This document shows, one piece after another, positions 6,176 to 36,917 of a DNA stretch of 64,000 nt. Below the pieces are notes generated by a model. It was given only the letters and a program-made list of their open reading frames with translations. It was not told the DNA's origin and did no database searches. The position numbers and the translations under genes were made by a program. Each line of letters begins with the position of its first letter. Within the stretch, counting starts at the first letter, position 1. The DNA is from Polytrichum commune (Eukaryota; Streptophyta; Polytrichopsida; Polytrichales; Polytrichaceae). The stretch spans positions 35,774,001-35,838,000 of the forward strand of contig OX485806.1 in the NCBI GenBank assembly GCA_950295325.1, given 5' to 3'.

Positions 6176-7237
6176 TCATATTAATGTACTACTCATTTTG
6201 AAGCGGTCAAATAAAGAGGACAAGATATTCTTATGTGAGAATTGAAAGCTCCTATTAGATTAATTTAATCAAATGTGCTACCCAAAAAATAGCGGACTTG
6301 ATACTCTTGACTTTGAAACTTGAAAAGAAAGATGATTAACCTGAATGAGGACGGCCGTGGTCTTTCCACTAGATCTCTTCCAGTATATGGTCTTATGACC
6401 TGCGTACATAGGATTCTAAATTCACATTCACTGAGGTTATAACCGCCTAGTGGAAAATGACAACAGAGCATGCAATGCAAGTAAGGTAGTGTCAGGACTC
6501 AGGAGGTTCAAGTGGCGCTCTTCTTCAATCAGGCTCCATGTCTTGATTCAGATTTCTTCAATGCAACATGACTTTTAGTTGTCTCCTCTTGTTCCGGTGG
6601 TTAGGGCATTGCAATGCAACATGGTGCCACGTGAGATTACAGGGGGAAAAGTGTATTGAACGGTCCTGGCAGCTTCAAACCAGGTGTGAATTTGTCTCTA
6701 GTCATTCATTGTCGGTTTGTGTTCTGCCTCGAGTGGCGCGAAATGCGGAGTCGATTAAAGCTCTTCTATGAGTTTAGGTCGCACACTGATGAGTCGTCAA
6801 CACTTGACATTTACTTGACACACGATGGTGGGCTATATATGGTGGGTTTTGTGTGTGTGTGTAAATTGACATGTTGTTTCCTGTCGGATTTCTTGTCATA
6901 TTCATGTCCTCGGGGTGAGGCTCATCAGTTTCAGAAAGTCTGACATGAATGCCCTGCCCCGTTACATGATGAAGACATGATCAAATTTTCTTCGTTATAT
7001 TTAGACACCAAATCTTAGAAAGGCCTTTGTACATCCAATTTAGGTTTTTGGAAGGTTTCTCTATTCTAACTTACCTAATGAGCTTTCCAGATCTAAACAC
7101 ATATTATCCATTTGGTGTACCATAAATTAGGTATGTTCTCTTCAAAGGAGATTGGCACCATCTTTTGACCCTCTTAAACATTTTGGGCCCTTTTGGAAAA
7201 CTTGGACTACCACCCTTGCATGAAGTTCACTTGGCTC
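6176..7237. other. No gene recognised
   Basis: Short frames of 67-95 codons occur at 6568-6943 on the plus strand, but they overlap in different frames and carry no motif I recognise. A GT-rich run (GTGTGTGTGTGTG) lies near 6850. Confidence 0.45.
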
Positions 7238-7241
7238 TTAA

Positions 7242-7834
7242 CCCCTAAAGGACCGTAAGGCCCCCAAGGGGCTTTTGATTGTAGAAAAGTGCAAATTGGA
7301 TGAGATTGTTCCAAAGAAGCCCAAATTTGCGGGGAGAGGACCCTGGCTGTTTTTGCGAGATGGATCCAATGGTCTTTTCCGATCAGAAAATGATGAAGGA
7401 TTGGATTTTTGGCGAATTCTTTGAGTTTTCAGTTTTTGGGCCCAATCTCATTGCTTGGAGACTTCAGAGTCCCAAATCTTTTTTTCCACACCTCAGAATT
7501 TGACGAAAAAAAATTCCACGTGAGGGTCATAATGTTCTTTACATGTGGTAAAAATTTCAGATGTTTTGGAGCACTTCTAAGCAATCTGATTCCAGCATAA
7601 GTACGAAGTATCCCCTGCCCGAACAATTTCCATCAATCTTCTCAACGGTGGCAATTTCTCAGAAATTGTGCGATCTTGTTGATCTTTTTTTGCATAAACA
7701 AGCTATGTAAGTCTTCTTTAGTTTCAACAGTGCCGATCGTGAAAATTACCCCACACCAATAAGAAATTGAGCTTGTTACAAGAGCTAATCAAGAAAACAT
7801 GACCTAAGCTAAAACACCCTTGGTCCTATAGGGG
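7242..7834. mobile_element. TTAA-flanked inverted-repeat element, 593 bp (piggyBac-like termini)
   Basis: The ends CCCCTAAAGGACC (7242) and GGTCCTATAGGGG (ends 7834) are inverted with one mismatch in 13, and each is flanked by TTAA (7238-7241 and 7835-7838). Duplication of TTAA next to termini beginning CCC is typical of piggyBac-type elements; a Kolobok-type origin is the alternative. No transposase remains. The element at 22540-22772 has the same architecture and a similar sub-terminal block with GCCCC followed by GGG. Confidence 0.55.
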
Positions 7835-8288
7835 TTAATCTACAAAAAGACCAAAAGGAGTATCTATGTATCGAAAGTCTCTTATGTAGAGGAGGTGCCA
7901 TACTCCTATACACAAATGACTCTCGTGAGTTTGCTTACTTTCGTATTGCAAATTGTTGAAGGACCAGACCATAAGGTGTGTTGTTGCTTTCATTTTCATT
8001 GTTGTAAAACACCTCTTGATTGACCTTTTAAACATTTGTGGAGTGTAAACAAGTTGATCACTGAGATGAGAGTCACATTTCACCAAATTGAGGATGCCAT
8101 GCAAAGTGCATAACATTCTTGAGTGACCCCCACAATCTACTTTTTGAAGACGTATATTATCATGGAATACGGGGATGACGTGACCCCTAGAAGAAGGCCA
8201 TGGCATCTGGCCTTACATCAACTTGAAGCCATCTCTTTTGAAATTCATGGCCACCATGGGCAAACAAGTAAGGTCAACTAAGGTAGAC
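7835..8288. other. No gene recognised
   Basis: The 123-codon minus-strand frame at 7835-8206 shows no motif, no homologue I recognise and no clear splice context. It is left unannotated. Confidence 0.4.
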
Positions 8289-8291
8289 TAA

Positions 8292-9177
8292 GGGCCAAGT
8301 TCCATGTGCCGGTCCTGGTCCGTTTTTTAAATGGGTGAGAAACGGGTGACATCATCCAAAAAATGGGTGATGTCACCCATTTTATGGAGGGGTACTTCTA
8401 TGTGGGGTGCCGGTTATTTCGATTTCCTACTTTCTAACTAAATTTGGTGAGTGATAAGACATGACACTTTATGAAGGTCACTGGCAATGGAGGTCATCAT
8501 CATTTAACTTTTCATATTTGATTTGCACATCAATTTCCATACATTTATTGAATGAATGAATTTATTAGAGTGAGGCGAGTGGCTGTCAACATTGCATGTA
8601 TTGATACATAAAGATTTTTTAAGTTTATACCCCTAATTGATAATCTAATTGTCAATGTAACCACTACATAAAGTGAAATAATCCTGTGTTTGTTTTAATA
8701 AAACTTAACTGTGACACCTAAATGATGCCAAAATAGTATTTTAAATATTTTACAAGTGTTTCCTTTGGTTTGTTTGCCTTATATATATATATATATATAT
8801 CTAGATCTAGATCTAGATATTGTTAAGATCTAGATTCTAAAACCATCATAAAATACACAATACACGTTCCGTAGGAGTGCTCCTTAAAAGAAAGGACTTG
8901 AAGAACAAAGTGGCCTTTAGTATCCAAGGGTGTACCATAGGTGACCGGCCAATCCGGTCACCGGAGCTTTCTAACCGGCACATGTCCTTCTTGTGACCGT
9001 TAGGACCGCTCGTCCTTTGGCACCCGTTCTTGCACAACACAAAATGTGGGACACCCATCCATGGGGGGTACCGGTCCTTGGGTGAGAGGAATGGGCATAT
9101 GGCACCACCCTCTTTTCACTGGCCCACCCATTTATTATTTTAAAAACGGACCGGGACCGGCACATGGAACTTGGCCC
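8292..9177. mobile_element. PIF/Harbinger-like non-autonomous element, 886 bp
   Basis: The ends GGGCCAAGTTCCATGTGCCG (8292) and CGGCACATGGAACTTGGCCC (ends 9177) are inverted. The match continues as GGTCC...GGTCCGTTTTTAAA with one indel, giving about 40 bp of terminal inverted repeat. The flanks are TAA on both sides (8289-8291 and 9178-9180). A 3-bp TAA/TTA duplication with termini starting GGG is the PIF/Harbinger (Tourist-like) signature. Inside are an (AT)n tract (about 8780-8800), CTAGAT repeats and a GGTGACCGG-type palindrome near 8940-8965, but no transposase. Confidence 0.8.
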
Positions 9178-9180
9178 TAA

Positions 9181-12100
9181 GGGCTTGTTAACCCGAAACC
9201 TATTGGGTCATGGCTTTTGAGAATCTTTCAATTCTTATTGGTTGAGAGTGTCACGGACCCCTACTTTAGGTTTACATAAGGACAATTTTGGATTACAACC
9301 CAGAACATTTTTTTAGTGGATAAAAAAATCTACATGGAATCTCACATGGCAAGTATGCATGATGTTAGCCGGGGATTTGTAAGGGAAACTTACGGGACGG
9401 CTCTTGAAAGTATGTGAGATAGATAGTGCGGCATGTCTTGGGGGACAACCCATGACAATTTAATAAAGATATCTATTCTACTCCTTTCTTGTTTAATTCA
9501 GAATGTGACTATTGGAGTATGTAGTAGGAAAATTTTGGCTATAGCCCTTTCACACGTTCTATAGGATATAGATTGCTCAAATTTGAGGCATAAAGTAAGG
9601 CTAGAACCTTAAAATAATGTGAATGGTAGGCTATAGGCGGTTGCCAACAGTTTCAACCCTAGACAATTGCATATGAGGCCGGCGCTATAAGGGAAATTCC
9701 CATGACGAAGAAGACAAATCATTTGTAATAGACAAATCATATTATAGTTGTGAGAGCTAGTATGAGTAGCACATGCCATAGGCTTAGCGAGAATGTGATA
9801 GAATGTGGGAAGAATATAGCTACAAAATCATGAGATGGGAGTGATGGTTACATGCAAGAGTTGTCTTAACAAAGGAGAAGAAACATTATTCCAAGATCTT
9901 GGGGGGCACACTTCCAATACTTTCCAAAAGGGGTGGAATATAACATAGGGTAACATTAAATTCTTCAAAAGTAAAAATCATAACAAAGTCATAATTAACA
10001 AAGGATGGCCTCTATACGTGATACTTAGGTTAAAGAAACTTATTAGGTGATTTTAGATTTAATATCAAAAAAATGTGACATACATGAACAAATATCCCAT
10101 GAGAAAAAGAAAAAGTTTGTTGAGATAATTATTTTGAAGAATGCCACCAAAGGCCTAATTGTTGTATAAACCTTAGGATACCTTCTCTTATTTGGTTAAT
10201 GAGAATAATCTTTATCCCGTCATCCCAAATAGCGAGATTAATTTCATTCATAACATTTAATATTTCATTCATTAAAGGAAATTCTTAGGGAAGGAGGAAT
10301 GACCTTTCCGAGGCCCTGATGGGGGCTCAATTCCACCCCTTTTCTCTCATGTGTTGTGTGGCTAATAAGGGTGTTTAAACTCATAAGGATGTGCAAGTTT
10401 TGAGTGTGGCGAGGTTAGGTTGTGATTACACAAGCAATGTGCTTCCACTATGAAAACCATGTTTTCTTTTTCTTTGAAATGCTTTAAATTTAGGGTTAGG
10501 AACTTTGTGCGAGGAGAATGTTTGTTTCTTATTTGTTTGGAAGCTTGGTTTAGGGTAAATCCTTCAGCTAGGTAGATAATCTCAACGGCCATTCTCTTAG
10601 CTTAATCATGTCATTAGATTCAAGCTCGATTGCTAGATTTATAGGATTCCATGCTTCAAACTCTAAGTGGAGAGATACCAATTCAATAATATCAACCACG
10701 ACAATGACATATCAACCATCCTCCAAAGTTATATGCATTGGATAATAATGATGATGAGTGTCTAGCATAATTTGTTTCTTTTTGAGGTTAAGTTGTTTAT
10801 GGGTATGCTAGACCTTATTGGTTCATACTTGAATCAATGGTGATGTAATTTCTACACTACATCTCATCAATAAATGTATACCAAAAGTAAATTTCATTGT
10901 TATGTTTTTTGTATTGGAATCTTGAAAATGCCTCTATTACTTCTAGTCCTACTTTCAAAGTTTTTAATTTCTTAATATCAATATACATTTATGGATACAA
11001 GAGCTCCAAAATTTTATAATTTACATACCATCTCATCAAAAGGTTGAATTCCAATATTATGTAATTATGGGGTCCTCATAATGTATGCAGTCATGATAAA
11101 CATGTAATTGATTGCATGATAAACATGTAGTTATGGGGTCCTCGAAATGTATACATTCATGATAGATTGCATGTCAAGTGAAATTTACATAAGTGGGATA
11201 GAGTATAGCTAGGTTTGATGTGTGAGAGGAAAATTCTTGTTGTTTGGATTGCAATTACAAAGAGGAGTTTGGTAAGCATTAGGCTATGGTCTTATAATTG
11301 GATAGTTATTTGAATTAGGCTAACAAAATCATTTGAGTAAGTCTATAACCAAGGGAAAACATTCAGAACGATGATTAGCAATAGTACAAAGTTTGAATTA
11401 CCTTGTAATATAGTATATCAAATAAGAGGGAGGAATAGATTAATGGCAGAGCAAGGTAAGAGTAACTTGACCTTGCTGCTTGGCTCTCGGGGGGTAATCA
11501 TTGGTTGGAGTAGCAATATACACGCGAACAAATGATAGGGTATTTTAAAAACATAGGGGCAAAAAATTATAAATGGACTTAAGAGTAATATAGGGTATCA
11601 AAAATGGCACTAGACATCTTTAAAGTACTATAGGGTATGGAATAATAGGTAATTTGGAATTATAAGTAATGCAAGCCATTTTTCTATTAATCCAAAGTAG
11701 AAAATCACACAATGATAGCATGTGAAAAAAAAAAAAAATTGAAAGTAATACCCCCCTATAAAATAGTGGTTGTTCGCACCTATATCCTCAACTTTTTAAC
11801 ACACTGCCCCCCCCCCCCCCCGAGGCTTGGCTATACTATTACTTGCATATTTTCAAGGAAGGAATTGATTATATAAATAACATTACATAGTTTATAGTGA
11901 TGGCCATAAGCTTGATCCACTGACTATATCTTCATATTGAAGTGATAGCTATAGTCTTCGTGAGATGAAATTGCTAACATGTAAGTTGAACCAAACTACA
12001 ACATGTTTTCATTCATGAAAATTCATAATAAAAATGCCAAATCACAATTAATCAAAAGTTAATTAAGGTTTGCAATAGGGAAAATTAAAATATTACTTGA

Positions 12101-14053: not shown

Positions 14054-15551
14054 CACGGGGAGGTCACTCAGTAGAATTTTTGTGTACCACGTGCGGCGGA
14101 GGGGTATTTGTTTAGGGGCTATTTACCTCCAAGGCACGAATTAAAAGCTCCCTATAATTACATAATATTCTAAAATGGCCTATTTTTTTGTACCCTACCA
14201 TTACTTATAAAGCCCATGTCATTGAAATTTTTTGTAGTCTATATTCCTTTTAATTAAAAAAACTGAATTTAAGAATGTATGCAATGCAAAAGTGATGGGA
14301 AAAGCATGGCAACAAAAAAATATAAAAATTACGTACCAGTGCAAAAACCAAGTGCAAAAACTTAAAGTGAAAATACAAAAAGAAGACTTAGGATGGAACA
14401 CAACATGATTGAGTGTGTGTTTACAAACACAACAAGATTGTGTGTGTGTTCACAAACACAACACCCGCTCCATAAAAATCCTTTATTCAAAAACACTTTA
14501 CATGCTAGTGAAGACCAAAACCATATAGTGTGAAACACTTTAAGCTTGGTCATGAATCTTATACAGTTCATTATGTCACAAACTTGGACATTTGCTCTGA
14601 ATCATTCCTATCAAAAGTGTACACCTCATTTGTAGAATTGTAGCTCATGGTTACCGTAGATATAATGCAATCTACATCAATCCATTTGCTATCCGTGTGA
14701 TCATACTTAAATTTGTTACGGCCTGGATATTTTCTATAATATTGCAACATTACTTCGATGTGGGGATTATTAGGATTTCTCCTCCCTGATTCCTCCGTTC
14801 GAGCAAGGAGGTCAACCGCTTGCCTAAGTACTCCAAATTGTTTCCCATTGCGCCGCCGCATAGCCTGCACCCTACCCACCCACCATGAATTGGAATCTAC
14901 TCCGTTCAATATGTTAGTAGCATTTCCAACTTTAACATCAGTCATTGAACGTCCCCTTTTTCGTTTGGCAGTGGATTTTACAGTTGACAATAGCATTGTT
15001 GTGCTCCGTTGGACAAAATGCACCCCACAATCAGATCCTATAGATAACAAACTTGATCCACATGAAGATCTTGCTTGGAGACAATTATCATGGTTGTTGA
15101 AATGAATACTATGTTTAATTCTTGCTAATCTATCTTTGGATAGAAAAACATTACCATTGAGTTGCGAGAAATGTTGACTTGTAAATGGAATGCCCATCAA
15201 CTTCTACGGTTGGCAAAAATTTTCCGGTTCTCTGTACTGAGGCTTCCAATTTCATCCATTTTTGGGTGAATGATGAGTAATTTTTCATCCATCCCTTGTG
15301 ATGCATGCGTACGAAATTGATTCTGCTAAACATACATCCTAAGATCCTTATTTTTAGCCCTCATATTATTTTTACTAAAAGGGAATGGCCCATATTTTAT
15401 ACCTATCTATTTTACTTGTAATGGGCTTATGTACTTTTAATGGACCCTTCATTATTTGGAATTCTTTTATAATTTTTATGTCAAATGATTTAAATCCTCC
15501 CTATATTATGCCACACGTCGTTTTTAAAATGCACTAAGTGACCTCCCCGTG
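14054..15551. mobile_element. CACGGG-family DNA transposon, 1498 bp, inserted in a pogo-like gene
   Basis: The ends CACGGGGAGGTCACTCAGTA (14054) and CTAAGTGACCTCCCCGTG (ends 15551) are flanked by a perfect 8-bp duplication AGATAGAC (14046-14053 and 15552-15559). The outer 150-200 bp on each side match the 29128 and 32324 copies: left CCACGTGCGGCG and CCCTATAATTAC; right CCTTCATTATTTGGAATTC, ATTATGCC and CGTCGTTTTTAAAATGCAC. It is longer than the other simple copies because it carries about 1 kb of internal sequence with a minus-strand coding fragment. An 8-bp duplication points to hAT or another 8-bp superfamily. Confidence 0.9.
14571..15333 (-). pseudogene. Unidentified protein-coding fragment carried inside the 14054-15551 element
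   Basis: Two minus-strand frames, 15333-15151 and 15200-14571, appear to be one protein broken by a frameshift near 15180. The first ends in TGKFLPTVEVDGHSIYKSTF and the second continues HFSQLNGNVFLSKDRLARIK. Further along are a basic patch KSTAKRKRGRSM, WWVGRVQAMRRRNGKQFG and SKWIDVDCIISTVTMSY. The composition is protein-like over about 250 residues, but I do not recognise the family. It is either cargo captured by the transposon or a remnant of the element's own protein. No zinc-finger BED or hAT dimerisation motif is seen. Confidence 0.5.
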
Positions 15552-27654: not shown

Positions 27655-29127
27655 ATACTAAATTCAAGACCAAATAAGAACCCAACCGAAATCCTCAAAG
27701 ACCTATACCAATCTTCCATGACTTGCTCTTCCTCTTCCAACATTGCTATGCACAAAAAAAAATCCCAAATTATCGGAAATACAACAAAACCATACTCCTA
27801 CATAAAAAGGACGGCCCTCTTATACTCACAACCTATAGACCCATAGCCCTTGCCAACACCATATATAAACTATATACTATCACACTCACCTCATTCCTCA
27901 CTTGTTATGGAGAACAACATTAAAACCTACACTTCAACCAAGAAGGCTTTAAACCACAAAGAAACACCACAAGACAAATGCATATGATAATAATGGCCCT
28001 AGAATATGCACAATTTACCAACAATGACATCTACCTCGCATACATAGACTTCCAAATTGCCTTTGGCTCAGTGGACCATGTGAGATTACTAAGCAATCAT
28101 GGAAGATCTAGGATTACCTAAAGACGCAATAGAACTCATTGGCAACATATACACAAACGCCGCTACCTCCTTCCATGGCAACCACTTTGGCACTACCCGA
28201 CCAATCCATATAAATTGCAGGACCATCCAAGGCAACATACTCAACCCATACCTATTCATCATCTTCCTAGAACCCCTCCTACTATGGTTAGAAAAGACAA
28301 TATTGGCTACCATTGAAACACATCCACCGCAACATATAACACCACAACATATGTGGACAATGCAGGCATCATCACAAAAAAACTCTTAATGACCTCACTC
28401 GCCTCCATGAAACAAAAAAATGCACTTTACTAAATGCAATTATAAAACTAGGCATAGCCTATGCATACTATGCGGTCCACTTCTCTAAACCATACATCAA
28501 AAAGCTAGATAAAGTCATATGTAGCATTCCCAAAAGCATGACCAACATACTAACCCACCTCCCCCATAAAGGATTCAACATAAAAACCACATCCCTATTA
28601 CCAAACTACATAAACTGCATAGCAAACAACTATTGCATGCACTAAACGACCAAGGCCAACTTGGACAAATCTACAAAGGAATAACCAAACATATAATTGC
28701 TAACTTTGGCAGATCATTACATCTCTCACACCTAAAATACCAAGCATGCTCAAGGTCACCTATAACCCAAACGTTTTACATGCTAGAAAGAGAATACGAG
28801 ATCTACGTTAACACCAAAGACAAGACTTTCCCATAAACGAAACCCCCTAGAAATAACATGGAAAATCTCACCCCACTACAACTCACTCACACCCAAACAA
28901 AAAAGAACTCCAAGAAATACCTCAACAACCTCTACATGTACAACATTACAAACCATTACATAAATCCAAAACCCAATCACACAACTAATCATCTCTTAAA
29001 ACCAAACACATAGCCACCCAAAATTCATCAAAGAAGCTTTCCAACAAGCCATAACCATGTTCCCACAACACCTGCCCCAAATCCAACCACTCACATCACC
29101 TTGCCACCCCATGAACCCACAACTTGC

Positions 29128-29647
29128 CACGGGTAGATCACTCTAAGGCATTTTTGTGCACCACGTGCGGCTGGGGTTTTTTTTGTTTTGGGGCTATTTA
29201 CCTTCAAGGGCTAAATTAAAGCCTCCCTATAATTACTTAAATTTCAAAAATGGCCCATTTGTTTGCACCCTTCCATTACTTATATTGTCCAAGTCATTGC
29301 AATTTTTTGTACTCTATATTCCTTTTAACGACGGCGCGTTCCCTTTTCATCCATTTTTGGACAAACGGAAATCCCAATTATCATCCATCCCCGTGAGTCC
29401 TAAACCCATTTACATACCATACTAAACATACCTTCTAGGATACTTATCTTCAGCCCCTGTATTAATTTTACAAAAAAATAATGGCCCACGTTTTATGTCC
29501 ATCTAACTTACTTATAATGGGATTGTCTACACTTAATGGCCCCTTCATTATTTGGAATTCCTTTATAATTTTTATTGCAAATGATTTTAATCCTCTCTAT
29601 ATTATGCCGCACGTCGTTTTTAAAATGCACTAAGTGATCTACCCGTG
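29128..29647 (+). mobile_element. CACGGG-family element, left copy of the composite, 520 bp
   Basis: Begins CACGGGTAGATCACTCTAAG and ends ACTAAGTGATCTACCCGTG. Near the left end is CACCACGTGCGGCTGG, with a CACGTG core, and near the right end AACGACGTGCGGCATAAT (read on the complement). It is nearly identical to 32324-32819, differing mainly by an extra stretch around 29330-29360 (GACGGCGCGTTCCC). No ORF of interest. Confidence 0.85.
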
Positions 29648-29686
29648 ACCTAATCTCAAGCTCTTTTCAACTAGATCTGCACATTA

Positions 29687-31063
29687 TTGTGTTTTCCAAA
29701 AATGTTATGGGTCCATTATGAACTGCTAGTGCCACCATTCACGTGGCACATGCTCGTCAAAATGATTTGGGACACAATTTTTGGATTTCTTGCCTTGGTC
29801 CATATTGTGGCGGGAATTTGGTGTCCTATAGTGGTCCGGTTTTTTGATCTTTTTAGTGCTTCTATTGTTCTTGCCTCTTTGTCCACAATACGTGACTTTG
29901 ATGAGAATATGTTTCTCTATACTCCACCCACTTCCATTGCCCAAAATCGATTTGTCCAAATATGTCTTCCTGGTCTACCTAATTCACCTTTTACACTATC
30001 ATTTGCCATTGCTGACGATTGTGATAATATCACTAACATTGTTGATATCTTGAAGGACTTGCGTTATAGGCCATATTGCTCTAGTTTCATTTGAGACATT
30101 GACATTGATATTCTCACCTATCAATTTGTGTAGTTCTTGCCTGACCAATGCAACGGAGATGCCATGTATGAATTGCCACCTATCTTAGTTGTGCCATTGG
30201 GCTACACAAATCTCCTTCAAGATATGGATCGAGACATTATTTGCAACGACAATGATCTTTGCTTCCGGTATGTAGCATATGTGGGTCATATTTTGTGTCC
30301 TAACAACAATTGTTCATATCTTCATCATCATTGTTGTCCAAATTCAACACAATGGAAGGAGAATTTTGCCAAACTACCATCTATTGGGCCAGTGTTGGAG
30401 ACAAAATGCACACTCATTTGTCAACATTGCAATTTGAGTGTATTGCTTTGTGTCATGCAAATATGTACTACATTGTCCATTTCAAGGAGAATGTCACATG
30501 GACTTGTCTGCATATTGGTTTTCATGCATATCCAGTTGCCTTGGCGGAGTGTAAAGACATAGTCGGCACAGTAAGAAAGCTAGTGAGGGGAAAAACTTCC
30601 AAAATCTCCTAGCAGAACAATATCTTCCATTGTTTTGGCCATTTCAATAAATCATGGATGTCATCAAACATGTTGGAGCTAGAGGGGAAAACTGCAACTA
30701 CCTTTGATGAAACGTCCATGTCAAATTTTCTCAGAATTCAAAAACATTTCATCTCCAAACATACAAAATCAAGTTCATTTATTTGAAAGACAATATGCCC
30801 AAAATGTTAGCATTGACTGCATTTTTGAGTTGAAGCGCAAAACAAATTTAATTTTATACATGACAATGTATTCCTAGAACAAGGCTTTTCCAATGTGTAC
30901 TTATTCAAGATGTCCAACATTGGACTTGGATCCGGTGTGGACTTGGTGAAGCACATGAAGCTAGGTGGGTCATTGAAAGGGGCTTGGATGTTTCTTGACC
31001 ATGCCAAGAGAGTGAAAGATTGGATGACAATGACATGCCACATCTGTAGAAGGTAGAGCATTA
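29687..31063 (+). pseudogene. Unidentified transposase-like gene relic in the composite's passenger
   Basis: Plus-strand pieces in different frames follow one another. 29687-30094 encodes a hydrophobic N-terminal piece. 30137-30400 contains GHILCPNNNCSYLHHHCC, then CTLICQHC, a Cys/His pattern suggesting a zinc-binding fold. About 30430-30612 reads CHANMYYIVHFKENVTWTCL, then HIGFHAYPVALAECKDIV. About 30868-31050 reads VFLEQGFSNVYLFKMSNIGL, GSGVDLVKHMKLGG and WMFLDHAKRVKDWMTM. The pieces keep order and protein-like composition, so one frameshifted gene is likely. I associate the H-x-G-x-H-x-(H/Y)-P-V and FKMS...GSGVDL blocks with transposon-derived proteins of non-seed plants from memory only. 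The family is unassigned. Confidence 0.4.
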
Positions 31064-31504
31064 GATTGTTGGTAGTCAATAAAAATATAAAAGAAAGATG
31101 CATGAGAAAGAATAAGGTTAGAATAAGGCTACCATGCTAGTCCGAAGAGGGATACGAATAATCTTATATTATTTGTATGAACCAATGAAGAGAAGAAAAA
31201 TAATATAAGACAAAGCAAGGAGAGCATGAGACCATGTCACTCCAAGCATTGTTCATATGCCTTTGTATAGGTGTCTATGTTTGTGCAATCTTATCTTTTA
31301 TTGATTCCAATAAGTTATGGGCCCACCATGCAAGTGAAGTGCCTAGAAATTTGATTGCATTTGAGTTTGCAGAATGGATCTTGAGGAGTTGGCGCTTCAT
31401 AGCGTTGGAGGTGTTCGAGGGCGAATTTTGTTGTTATAAGTATTTATTTGTTTTTTTTTTTTGCTTGAATGTATGTTTGATGCAAGATCATGTGATTTGG
31501 GTTT

Positions 31505-31909
31505 CTTGAGTGTTGAAAAATTTATTTGAGAGATTTGGAGATGTGTAGACTTCAAACATTTGACTTAAGTATTTTAAGTGCTCAAGGTTTTTTTTTAGAG
31601 TTTTGAAGGTGTTTACTCTCCAATAGTACATGACTTGAGAAACTTGAGTGTTGAGAGTTCTATTTGAGGTGTTTAGACTTTAAAGATTTGACTTGAATGT
31701 TTAGAGCGTTCGATTATTTCTTTGAGAGCTTTGAAGGTGTTTAGACTCCAATAGCACATAACTTGAGAAACTTGAGTGTTGAGAAACTTATTTGAGAGGT
31801 ATGGAGGTGTTTAGACTTTCAAACATTTGACTTGAATATTTTGAGAGTTCAAAAATTTCTTTGAAATCTTTGAAGGTGTTTAGACTCCAATAGAATATGA
31901 CTTGAGAGG
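31505..31909. repeat. Tandem repeat, three units of 128-139 bp
   Basis: Units start CTTGAGTGTTGA at 31505, 31643 and 31771. Each continues with TATTTGAG, GTGTTTAGACTT, ACATTTGACTTGAAT, CTTTGAAGGTGTTTAGACTC and CAATAG. From 31950 to about 32230 a second, related array of about 105-bp units (TTGAATGATTTGAGAGTATA, CATTTGAGGTGAAAGAGATC) follows. Both lie inside the composite transposon's passenger. Confidence 0.8.
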
Positions 31910-32323
31910 CTTGAATTTTGAGATAATTCTTTGAGAGTGTAACACGTATTTGAGTTAAAGAGATCTCATTTGAATGATTTGTGTCATTATAACTCTCTTG
32001 AGGTCTAAAAAATATTATTTAAATAATTTGAGAATGTAAGATATTTGAGGTGAAGGAGATCTTATTTAAATGATTTGAATGTGATTATAGCTCTCTTAAG
32101 GTGTAGAAAATATTATTTGAATGATTTGAGAGTATAAGACATTTGAGGTGAAAGAGATCTTAACATTTGAGGTGTAGAAAATCTAACTTGAGATATTTGA
32201 GAATGTAAGGCATTTAGGGTGAGAAATATATTGTTTGAATGCTTTGAACGTATATCCAAGCATAAGATGGCATCATTTAAAAGCGAGGCTACTAGAATCA
32301 TTGACAGATTCAATGAAGGGAAG

Positions 32324-32819
32324 CACGGGTAGATCACTCTAAGGCATTTTTGTGCACCACGTGCGGCTGGGGGTTTTTTGTTTTGGGGCTATTTACCTTC
32401 AAGGGCTGAATTAAAGCCTCCCTATAATTACTTGAATTTCAAAAATGGCCCATTTGTTTGCACCCTTCCATTACTTATATTGTCCAAGTCACTACAATTT
32501 TTTGTACTCTATATTCCTTTAAAGTAATTTTGGACAGACGGAACTCCTAATTATCATCCATCCCCGTGAGTCCTAAGCCCATTTACATATCATACTAAAC
32601 ATACCTTCTAGGATCCTTATCTTCAGCCCCTATATTAATTTTACAAAAAATAATGGCCCACGTTTTACGTCCATCTAACTTACTTATAATGGGATTGTCT
32701 ACATTTAATGGTCCCTTCATTATTTGGAATTCCTTTATAATTTTTATTTCAAATGGTTTTAATCCTCTCTATATTATGCCGCACGTCGTTTTTAAAATGC
32801 ACTAAGTGATCTACCCGTG
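32324..32819 (+). mobile_element. CACGGG-family element, right copy of the composite, 496 bp
   Basis: Same orientation and nearly the same sequence as 29128-29647, from CACGGGTAGATCACTCTAAG to AAGTGATCTACCCGTG. Only its right flank (CAACTTGC) takes part in an 8-bp duplication, and its partner is the left flank of the other copy. Confidence 0.85.
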
Positions 32820-35355
32820 CAACTTGCTAACAACCAAACCAATGGTATGCACATAAAAGTTGTCATTGACTCCAAAAACCTCTACAAGAAGAAACAGTGG
32901 GGGGCCCAAACCATCATACTTATGCCATTGGAATACAATACTACACAACACCACTAGATGGATAGAAGAATCACAACTCCTGAACCCAATCGACATGGCC
33001 TTTGAGCACAACTTACTTTTAACAAATAAATTCATCAGAAAACACAAATCAATGCCACTATAAACGCATTTTAAAATTGTGCATTCACTTTTCACAATCC
33101 AAAGGCCCTAGATTCATTCAACCATTAGTTGATGCTCCAAATTTAACTCTATCCATTAAAGAATGCAACTTGAACAAAGCCATCATCACCAATACACCCA
33201 CCATAAAAAATACAAAAACTAGACATCAACATTTTCGACCATAATGGAGCTTACGTCACAACCATTCCCACATGTAGACTACAATGGCTATGGGAACAAT
33301 ACAACCAAAGTTGCACACATCCCATGGCTAACCTTCTACAATTGGATCCTCAAAATGTTGGAACAAAAATTCTTTGGCTAATTTAAAGATACATCACTAT
33401 CCTCTCTAGAAATAAACCAAAAAACACAACCCGCACAATAATCATCGGACACTCTATCCCATTATCATCAACAATCTATCCCATAATCCTCAACACCCTA
33501 ATTGACACATACAAAAGAACCCATCAATACTACTCTTCACCCTCACATGCCCAATGAACCTCACACAATACAACTCCCCACATAATTGAGACATAGTTTT
33601 TGGTTCAATTAGACTCACACAATCATCATAATGGGAGGGAACCAAATTGGCGCATCCCAAAGACATGAACCTCACCATGGAAACACTCCACTGGGCAAGA
33701 ATGGCCACCAAAGAAGATCACAACACCTCAACCATAGTCATATTTAACTAGAAAGATAATGCCCTACACACACCACACAAAGAAGTGCACATAATCCTCA
33801 CCATCTCACCAAACACTATTGAATACAACCCTACACTAGAATGGCAACAACATTTTCACACACATGAACCCAACTACACCACCACCTTGTGTATACATAA
33901 TCAAAATTTTCACCAAGGCAACCATCACATACGATATATGCTTACAACCACTATACTTGAACTCTACGACACACATGTTGTAACCAACCACAAACTAAGA
34001 ATGTTCCTTGACTACAAACTCAAATTCACCAAGAATTTGAAAATAACCCCAAGAGCCACCTTGGCCACACCAACACACAACACACTTCACTAATCACCCC
34101 CTCAAATACGAGCCACAAATGTGCGTCTACACAAACGGCTCATTCATTCCCCTAGATGAGAATGGCATTGGAAATATTGCCGGCTCGGGAGTCTACATCC
34201 CACACGCATATCTCCACATTGCAAAATGACTACCAATGCTACAAATCATACTCCGAGCCGAAGTCAATGCTATAGTCATTACTGCAACCGCCACAAAACA
34301 CTTCCCACATGACATTTTCATCCTCATAGATAGCCTTATCAACATCTACTTAAGAAACAACCACATAAGATACCCTTCCTTCCAACACCACCACCTTGAC
34401 AAATTACTCATTGTGGCCATAGTCAACCAAATCAGGTGAACCACACGCAAGATAACAATACAAAAAGTCAAAGCCCACACCCACATTATAGGCAACAAAA
34501 TAGTAGACCACCTAGCAAATGACGGAAGCACTCTAAGTAAGCCTAACCCCACATTGCACATCCACATAGCACACACCACATCATACTGGCTCAATGGAAT
34601 CCCTATGGGAGTACGTAATAGAGAAAGTTGTCACCTACATACCTACATAAACAAAACACACAAAATAAATGAACTAACACTTGCCCGAGCCAAATACCCA
34701 TACGTAGATAAGTGGGTCTCCAATGACCTAATTAATAAAAAATTATCCAACCATTTTTGGAAAGCACCTAGCATATCCGACGCACTAAAGTTATGATATG
34801 CACAACACATGGGCAACCACCGCAATAACATATTTTGGCCACTTACATATCCAAATCCAAACCGGGTAATATGCCCAAGCAACGAAATTGACACTTGGTC
34901 ACACCTGTTATCCTCATGTACAAACCAACTATAAAAGGACTATGGATAGCTTGTCATGATAAAGTGGTCCACCGAATAGCTCACACACTACAATGCAATA
35001 AACACACTCGATTCTACACGCTCACCAATGCAAGTATTTGAAACTCACGACCACAAAACAAACACAAGACCCGAATGGCTACTACAATGTACATGCTCCT
35101 CCGCCCCATGCACATGCATGGCCCACCTTAGACCATACATATTGTGTAGGCTAAGAGCCCCTACCACCAACCACCCCCCGGTCCACCCTTCTCCACCAAT
35201 ATCATCCAAATCATAGAATCCACATAATGCCATGACCGATTTGCCACCACTGCAACCCAACAGAAAGCCAACAAATACGACTCACTCATCCAAGTCCTTC
35301 GTTCAAAAGGGTGGAAAGTCAATCCCCTAATCACCATTAGGGCCGATTGGCATGA

Positions 35356-36508: not shown

Positions 36509-36917
36509 CACGGGTAGATCACTCCATTGTCAAGTTGAACACCACGTGCGACCAAAAAAAATCTTCTTTTGGTAAGTTGCACCACCAAAATGGGTCAAAA
36601 TTTTATCAAAATTTTATCATGAGTAGATATACACAGTACCTATGACATAGTCAAAAGTGGTAACTAAATTTGATGATTTGTTTTTTTCATAAAACATACC
36701 ATTTCTAACTAGAATGACACAAAATTGAACTAAAACAATTACTAAAAAAATAAAAATGACTACAAATTTCAAAATAGTATTCAAAAGATACTATCAATGG
36801 TTATGTATATGTAGAAAAAATATCATAAATTTTAAAATTATATATGGCATGTAATATAGGGGTAGCAAACTTTGTCCGCACGTGGTGTCAACTTGACAAT
36901 GAAGTGACCTCCCCGTG
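36509..36917. mobile_element. CACGGG-family element, 409 bp, long inverted repeats
   Basis: The flanks TTTTGTGG (36501-36508 and 36918-36925) form a perfect 8-bp duplication. The left end CACGGGTAGATCACTCCATT and the right end (complement CACGGGGAGGTCACTTCATT) continue inward as GTCAAGTTGA...CACCACGTGCG, giving about 42 bp of inverted repeat. The interior differs from the other copies, so this is a separate subfamily sharing only the termini. Both ends carry CACGTG. Confidence 0.9.

Follow-up and report, generated by a model that had tools for sequence, protein, structure and literature searches.

How did 2.7 kb of sequence come to lie between two small transposable elements whose flanks match only on the outside? 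The question is raised by positions 29128-32819 of a 64,000-nucleotide stretch of the Polytrichum commune genome, hereafter the window (C4:35774001-35838000; genome assembly of 407.8 Mb in 64 contigs). As read from the sequence, this stretch is probably a macrotransposon, in which two elements the size of miniature inverted-repeat transposable elements (MITEs) and the passenger between them moved to C4 as one block. The structure consists of the following parts.

29120-29127, no strand: left copy of the outer target-site duplication, CAACTTGC, identical to 32820-32827
29128-29647, + strand: element 1, 520 bp, MITE-sized, from the repeat search and direct reading
29648-29655, no strand: inner flank ACCTAATC, donor side of element 1, present once at the matching point in L001, the C1 copy of the passenger
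29648-32323, + strand: passenger, 2,676 bp, 97.6% identical along its whole length to C1:52452588-52455256
32316-32323, no strand: inner flank AAGGGAAG, donor side of element 2, present once at the matching point in L001
32324-32819, + strand: element 2, 496 bp, from the repeat search and direct reading
32820-32827, no strand: right copy of the outer target-site duplication, CAACTTGC, identical to 29120-29127

Both elements lie in one orientation and belong to the same high-copy family. Their 15-bp inverted ends (CACGGGTAGATCACT) match at 15/15 positions at all four termini, and together with the passenger they form a block of 3,692 bp. The two flanks of element 1 differ from each other at 7/8 positions, as do those of element 2; the outer flanks of the block match at 8/8. 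The original prediction, made from the window alone, had described two same-orientation copies around 2.7 kb of other sequence. Direct reading and the repeat search confirmed this arrangement, as well as the claim that the 8-bp match joins the outer flanks only, with CAACTTGC outside and the unlike ACCTAATC and AAGGGAAG inside. No open reading frame (ORF) of at least 100 amino acids lies within either element, a statement that covers ORFs of that length only. The first 373 bp of element 1 matched at 95-100% identity at 40 places, itself included (40 candidates scored of 1,681).

How unusual this flank pattern is was gauged against the family itself. The control comprised 45 other copies with both ends, 37 of 39 from one fetch and 8 from elsewhere; L035 and L044, which have a single recognised end each, were left out. 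The copies' own 8-bp flanks were identical in 40 of the 45, and the remaining five differed by 1, 2, 2, 2 and 3 bases. As a chance control, unlinked left and right flanks on C1 were paired, and 8-bp identity occurred in 2 of the 33,822 pairs, or ~6e-5 per pair.

The passenger has a counterpart elsewhere in the genome. A search in which 40 of 1,054 first-look candidates were scored yielded, among those 40, a sole other full-length match, C1:52452588-52455256 (L001). Base by base, the two differ by 44 substitutions over 2,662 aligned bases (1.65%), with 21 gap columns. The passenger is collinear along its full 2,676 bp with one unbroken C1 stretch, and the alignment stops exactly at both element termini, the L001 sequence itself running on. 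L001 carries no element at either junction: its sequence runs through ACCTAATC at the left one and AAGGGAAG at the right one, with no duplication adjoining. The left junction is also continuous in two ~77% paralogues (C7:36270153-36270857 and C5:47726656-47727355), and the right junction falls inside a Copia gag frame (PF14223, E 4e-36). It is spanned by 39 of the 40 matches listed, L001 itself counted, and the Copia copies aligned there (five of six fetched) are all gapless. Since the left junction is continuous in paralogues and the right one lies inside gag, the borders of the passenger are arbitrary. L001 does not look like a site vacated by elements; it has the form to be expected if it is a donor paralogue, or a donor allele, that is unoccupied. 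The idea that the passenger is itself a transposon was rejected, its ends falling mid-way in continuous sequence of paralogues.

In joint movement, a donor chromosome resembling C1:52.45 Mb would have gained the two elements independently, in the same orientation and 2.68 kb apart. Element 1 would have landed in a decayed gene, duplicating ACCTAATC, and element 2 in the gag region of the neighbouring Copia, duplicating AAGGGAAG. Because the two share an orientation, one left and one right end lie outermost, namely that of element 1 on the left and that of element 2 on the right. A transposase supplied in trans could have cut at this pair of ends as though it bounded a single element. Insertion of the 3,692-bp block into an old repeat on C4 would have produced the CAACTTGC duplication; the inner halves of both original duplications would have travelled along, and the outer halves would have stayed at the donor. 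We thus infer a donor allele with both elements, a transposase and a single joint transposition. That the outermost ends were mobilised together and carried the passenger, as had been proposed, is supported by the outer-only duplication, the element-free C1 copy and a continuous relative of the host repeat. The host repeat occupies both sides of the insertion.

28600-29119, + strand: host repeat left of the insertion, with other listed matches partial and at 66-74% identity
32828-33500, + strand: host repeat right of the insertion, with an RNase H-like domain further downstream, at ~34.1-34.5 kb

These left and right flanks adjoin at C2:36645240-36646381, at ~70% identity. When the two flanks were joined by script with a single CAACTTGC (1,701 bases, junction at 828), bases 131-1403 of this reconstructed empty site aligned with L008 at 70%, across the junction. 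L010 passes the insertion point by ~70 bases, and L009 begins just beyond it. The original prediction placed the insertion in a long interspersed nuclear element (LINE) and looked to an empty copy of the site. The continuous C2 relative bears on the second point. As to the first, the host repeat is likely a LINE: reading through stops brought out an RNase H downstream (1.1e-6), and at E 0.01 there was no match to a reverse transcriptase. No related copy with the two elements separately inserted was seen, a case that the same prediction took to speak against joint movement.

The kinship of the two elements bears on how the donor was built. Elements 1 and 2 are 95.8% identical, and the family median is 96.0% (other copies >480 bp). 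Among the copies examined, the nearest relative of element 2 is L014a (97.2%), and those of element 1 are L018 and L029 (97.7%). A 22-bp deletion with neighbouring changes is common to element 2 and L014a and absent from element 1; elements 1 and 2 belong to different sublineages. Their divergence and markers fit two independent donor insertions. Tandem duplication of one element was also considered and is not favoured, since an identity of 95.8% is nothing unusual among family members and element 2 bears its own sublineage markers. Compared with the 45 other copies, element 1 has two private changes and element 2 has four. Set against the ~30% by which the host repeat has diverged from its relatives, the event is recent; this gives a relative age only.

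Several results weigh against joint movement, some of them from a survey of C1:1-60.1 Mb. The survey used 369 perfect ends of 400 listed rows; of the 31 rows left out, 30 lie on C1 past ~60.1 Mb and the remaining one is at 60,118,399. Among 94 end pairs no more than 900 bp apart, the flanks were identical in 76, showed 1-3 differences in 15 and showed 6-7 differences in three. These three small elements (L074, L075 and L076, at C1:13830029, 18965026 and 49822193) have perfect ends and unrelated flanks, with no partner found within ~3 kb, and are possibly halves of larger rearrangements. Because unmatched flanks occasionally occur without a composite, unmatched inner flanks are not diagnostic alone, and the evidential weight rests on the outer match and the C1 copy.

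The survey also brought to light no further composite. None of the 29 left/right pairs 0.9-40 kb apart proved to be a two-element composite; equal flanks were found in three, and these are single elements split or expanded mid-way (2.0, 14.6 and 17.1 kb). Perfect ends lying within 6 kb form 20 clusters, all of which were then read with up to four mismatches allowed per end, an approach that misses composites larger than 6 kb with an imperfect outer end. Thirteen clusters consist of a pair of complete elements, both of which have a duplication of their own (0-3 mismatches), and the other seven are L069, L075, L081, L085, L089, L090 and L091. Of these, L075 contains an own-duplicated element next to one with unmatched flanks, and L081 has a single left end and a single right end, whose flanks do not match. 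L085, L089, L090 and L091 show, in the stretch read, an end whose partner either went unrecognised or fails to match within two mismatches. An outer match combined with unmatched inner flanks occurred in 0/20 clusters, which suggests that such composite events are rare at best.

Other searches add to these points. The passenger bounded by the same ends, which the original prediction had proposed to look for at other sites, was not found a second time among the 40 candidates scored of 1,054, and the search returned instead the single full-length element-free copy at C1:52452588-52455256. Neither a donor locus carrying both elements nor a footprint joining its sides was found, and no transposase with these ends was present in the 5-6 kb around 12 of 150 listed hAT-domain matches. 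The element-free host site is known from a ~70% relative, not from an allele. Finally, an identical structure would result from routes in which recombination acts on a single resident element.

The main rival among such routes, which we consider unlikely, is the integration of a circle. A single resident element with CAACTTGC on both sides would have recombined with a circle carrying the passenger plus one element, itself derived by recombination from an element-passenger-element donor, and the final structure would be identical. The elements are ~96% identical over ~500 bp, and we retain this route because it has been speculated for two bacterial composites whose MITEs are directly oriented and whose site also occurs with one MITE alone (PMC13367494, in the excerpt available). 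It would nevertheless need two ectopic recombinations over 500 bp in addition to the same donor pair. Moreover, the markers of element 2 at element positions 172-345 are of L014a type and reveal no mixture with element 1; the rest of the element is uninformative, and mosaic elements, which both this route and gap repair predict, may yet be present. Gap repair, in which a break in a single resident element, or its excision, would have been mended by copying element-passenger-element from a donor, appears quite improbable. It too gives the same structure; a donor that is copied would keep its sequence, and C1 does have a copy of the passenger. That copy as assembled lacks the elements, however, and hence offers no template as it stands, and both break ends would have had to find two different elements at one donor.

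Two further explanations have still less in their favour. It is very improbable that the elements inserted independently, with duplications that have since decayed and outer flanks that match by coincidence, or that the structure is an assembly join. The three unmatched small end pairs of the 94 on C1, with no partner within ~3 kb, speak for independent insertion, whereas the outer match would arise by chance at ~6e-5 per pair, and the stopping of C1 homology at both element ends would be left unexplained. As for an assembly join, the passenger differs by 1.65% from C1 and is hence no erroneously joined copy of that contig. Transposition of reversed ends followed by re-replication, as at maize p1, is extremely improbable. 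Its products likewise have elements, and thus transposon ends, at both borders and an 8-bp outer duplication (PMC4270019, in excerpt). These maize insertions, however, hold an internal junction of two flanking segments; such a junction is absent here, where the passenger is fully collinear with L001 over 2,676 bp, and a composite insertion of this kind was rejected.

The family to which the two elements belong is large. A pattern of flank plus end, with up to one mismatch, matched 1,296 times forward and 1,285 times in reverse genome-wide, and a reversed control pattern gave 3 forward and 5 reverse matches. The 496-520 bp lengths, high copy number, inverted ends and constant duplication length are MITE traits; the 8-bp target duplication is a hAT-type trait and suggests hAT. 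The termini of hAT elements follow the consensus YARNG, and their target preference is nTnnnnAn. The terminal CACGG of this family departs from that consensus at base 3, and its weak, symmetric target preference, nnTnnAnn (T in 43% at position 3 and A in 41% at position 6 of 369 C1 ends), is unlike the hAT pattern. Ten ORFs in family elements, nine in the 14.6- and 17.1-kb split elements and one in the window element at 14054-15551, had no Pfam match at E 0.001, and four of the nine split-element ORFs were searched again at E 10.

The three pairs with equal flanks were inspected individually. L069 (C1:33277489-33279493) is a 2,005-bp family member, its middle expanded by imperfect repeats. In L070+L071 (C1:10124369-10138927), a nested element of ~14 kb interrupts a family member and has a 10-bp duplication, AGTCCTAAAC; the inverted ends of the nested element begin GAG, by eye, and it holds an ORF of 890 codons. 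L072+L073 (C1:45380826-45397890) is another family member, split by a 16.2-kb element whose ends, CTCGGGGAGTTCACT, resemble the family's own ends and whose flanks are CTCTATAT/CTCTATGT. This 16.2-kb element, which could be a large relative of the family, contains a 694-codon ORF without a Pfam match at E 0.001. Inside it, at 7115-9420 of the joined L072+L073, lies a further element, of 2.3 kb, whose ends are CACGGGGGGGT and whose flanks match (GGCCACCT).

Additional family-like elements were noted in the window and on C1. At 931-1764, 14054-15551 and 36509-36917, the window holds three more elements whose ends are similar and whose 8-bp duplications (CTCTAATG, AGATAGAC and TTTTGTGG) are exact. 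A search with the element at 14054-15551 gave 44 matches in 40 scored candidates, 36 of them full length at 95-100% identity, itself counted. A variant of 405-411 bp recurs near other family members (L079, L083, L087, L088, L091, L092, L013b and window 36509-36917); one of its ends is perfect and the other has 2-3 changes. In L077, at 2225-2880 (C1:6936724-6937379), two instances of a right end with its flank ACACAAAG, separated by 158 bp, lie beside one element; this flank also follows an element ending at C1:3138287. Three left ends within 86 kb, at C1:21867193, 21918608 and 21952434, have the common flank TTTTGGGC, which suggests a local segmental duplication.

The content of the passenger falls into two halves.

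29648-31044, + strand: left half, a decayed gene fragment related to the 890-codon ORF on C1
31045-32323, + strand: right half, a Copia long terminal repeat (LTR), leader and first gag codons, with gag PF14223 in the uninterrupted C1 copy
31536-32162, + strand: tandem repeats in the Copia part, from repeat analysis

The left half contains no Pfam family above cut-off, and it matches the 890-codon ORF by tblastn at 5e-24, with 29% identity over 218 amino acids. This ORF, in the nested ~14-kb element at C1:10.12-10.14 Mb, matched nothing in Pfam up to E 10 and none of the solved structures up to E 1; we infer from its context that it is transposase-like. Around the right half, the C1 Copia (2592-5201 of L001) has gag and RNase H-like frames, and its second LTR begins ~2.5 kb downstream. 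It looks internally deleted, with the RNase H recognised by eye and without a Pfam match there. On C6, a family element with its own duplication, AGAGATGA, sits in the gag region of another Copia copy (3505-4115 of L004), at an insertion point near, not identical to, the element 2 site.

Macrotransposition itself has precedents. Huang and Dooner in 2008 reportedly described it for Ac/Ds in direct orientation, with the outermost left and right ends paired. As far as excerpts of the cited papers go, here and below, a macrotransposon bounded by Ds on one side and by Ac on the opposite side is reported to have mobilised up to 100 kb (PMC3260210), and Ac/Ds macrotransposons are reported to excise with a modified 8-bp footprint and then reinsert (PMC9910405). 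The present case resembles this hAT system of maize in that two elements act as one through their outermost ends, with an 8-bp outer duplication, and carry kilobases between them, in one maize case mostly nested retrotransposons (PMC3260210; PMC9910405). In Ac/Ds, at least one partner is Ac or Ac-derived and movement was observed; here, in contrast, both partners are MITE-sized, the terminal sequence is another one, and the event is reconstructed from sequence. Macrotransposition of two neighbours was also proposed to explain how the Anopheles MITE AgaP2-P12 acquired the ends of two P subfamilies (PMC1562414). Unlike the present case, that is a hypothesis of MITE birth with internal deletion, concerning P elements, and the excerpt mentions no donor copy.

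The bacterial TIME-COMPs are similar in that two MITEs bound a passenger and movement is inferred from direct repeats found only outermost. They differ in having Tn3-type ends, repeats of 5-6 bp (the duplication here is 8 bp) and a hypothesised 'paste-and-copy' mechanism (PMC13367494). The claim that composite movement is rarely documented for MITE-sized elements therefore holds for the eukaryotic literature that we found, and not for bacteria, where TIME-COMPs are documented (PMC13367494). No eukaryotic two-MITE macrotransposon was found in the open-licence literature, which was covered in part, and the main text of a 2025 review of plant MITEs contains none of the words or stems composite, macrotranspos, captur, nested and intervening.

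On the broader significance, we lean towards the view that, in a single cut-and-paste event, an arbitrary 2.7-kb segment was carried from one chromosome to another by a pair of ~500-bp elements from different sublineages; this would make this locus a eukaryotic counterpart of the MITE composites. MITEs are very numerous in many genomes, and close end pairs do occur, as the 20 clusters within 6 kb on 60 Mb of C1 attest. The same survey suggests rarity, and the effect on genome evolution may therefore be small. With its four perfect ends, the block could move again as a unit. If pairs of ordinary MITEs do move in this way, they would provide a route by which kilobases are duplicated and shuffled without a coding transposon on site, and gene fragments would be relocated and duplicated without carrying a transposase.

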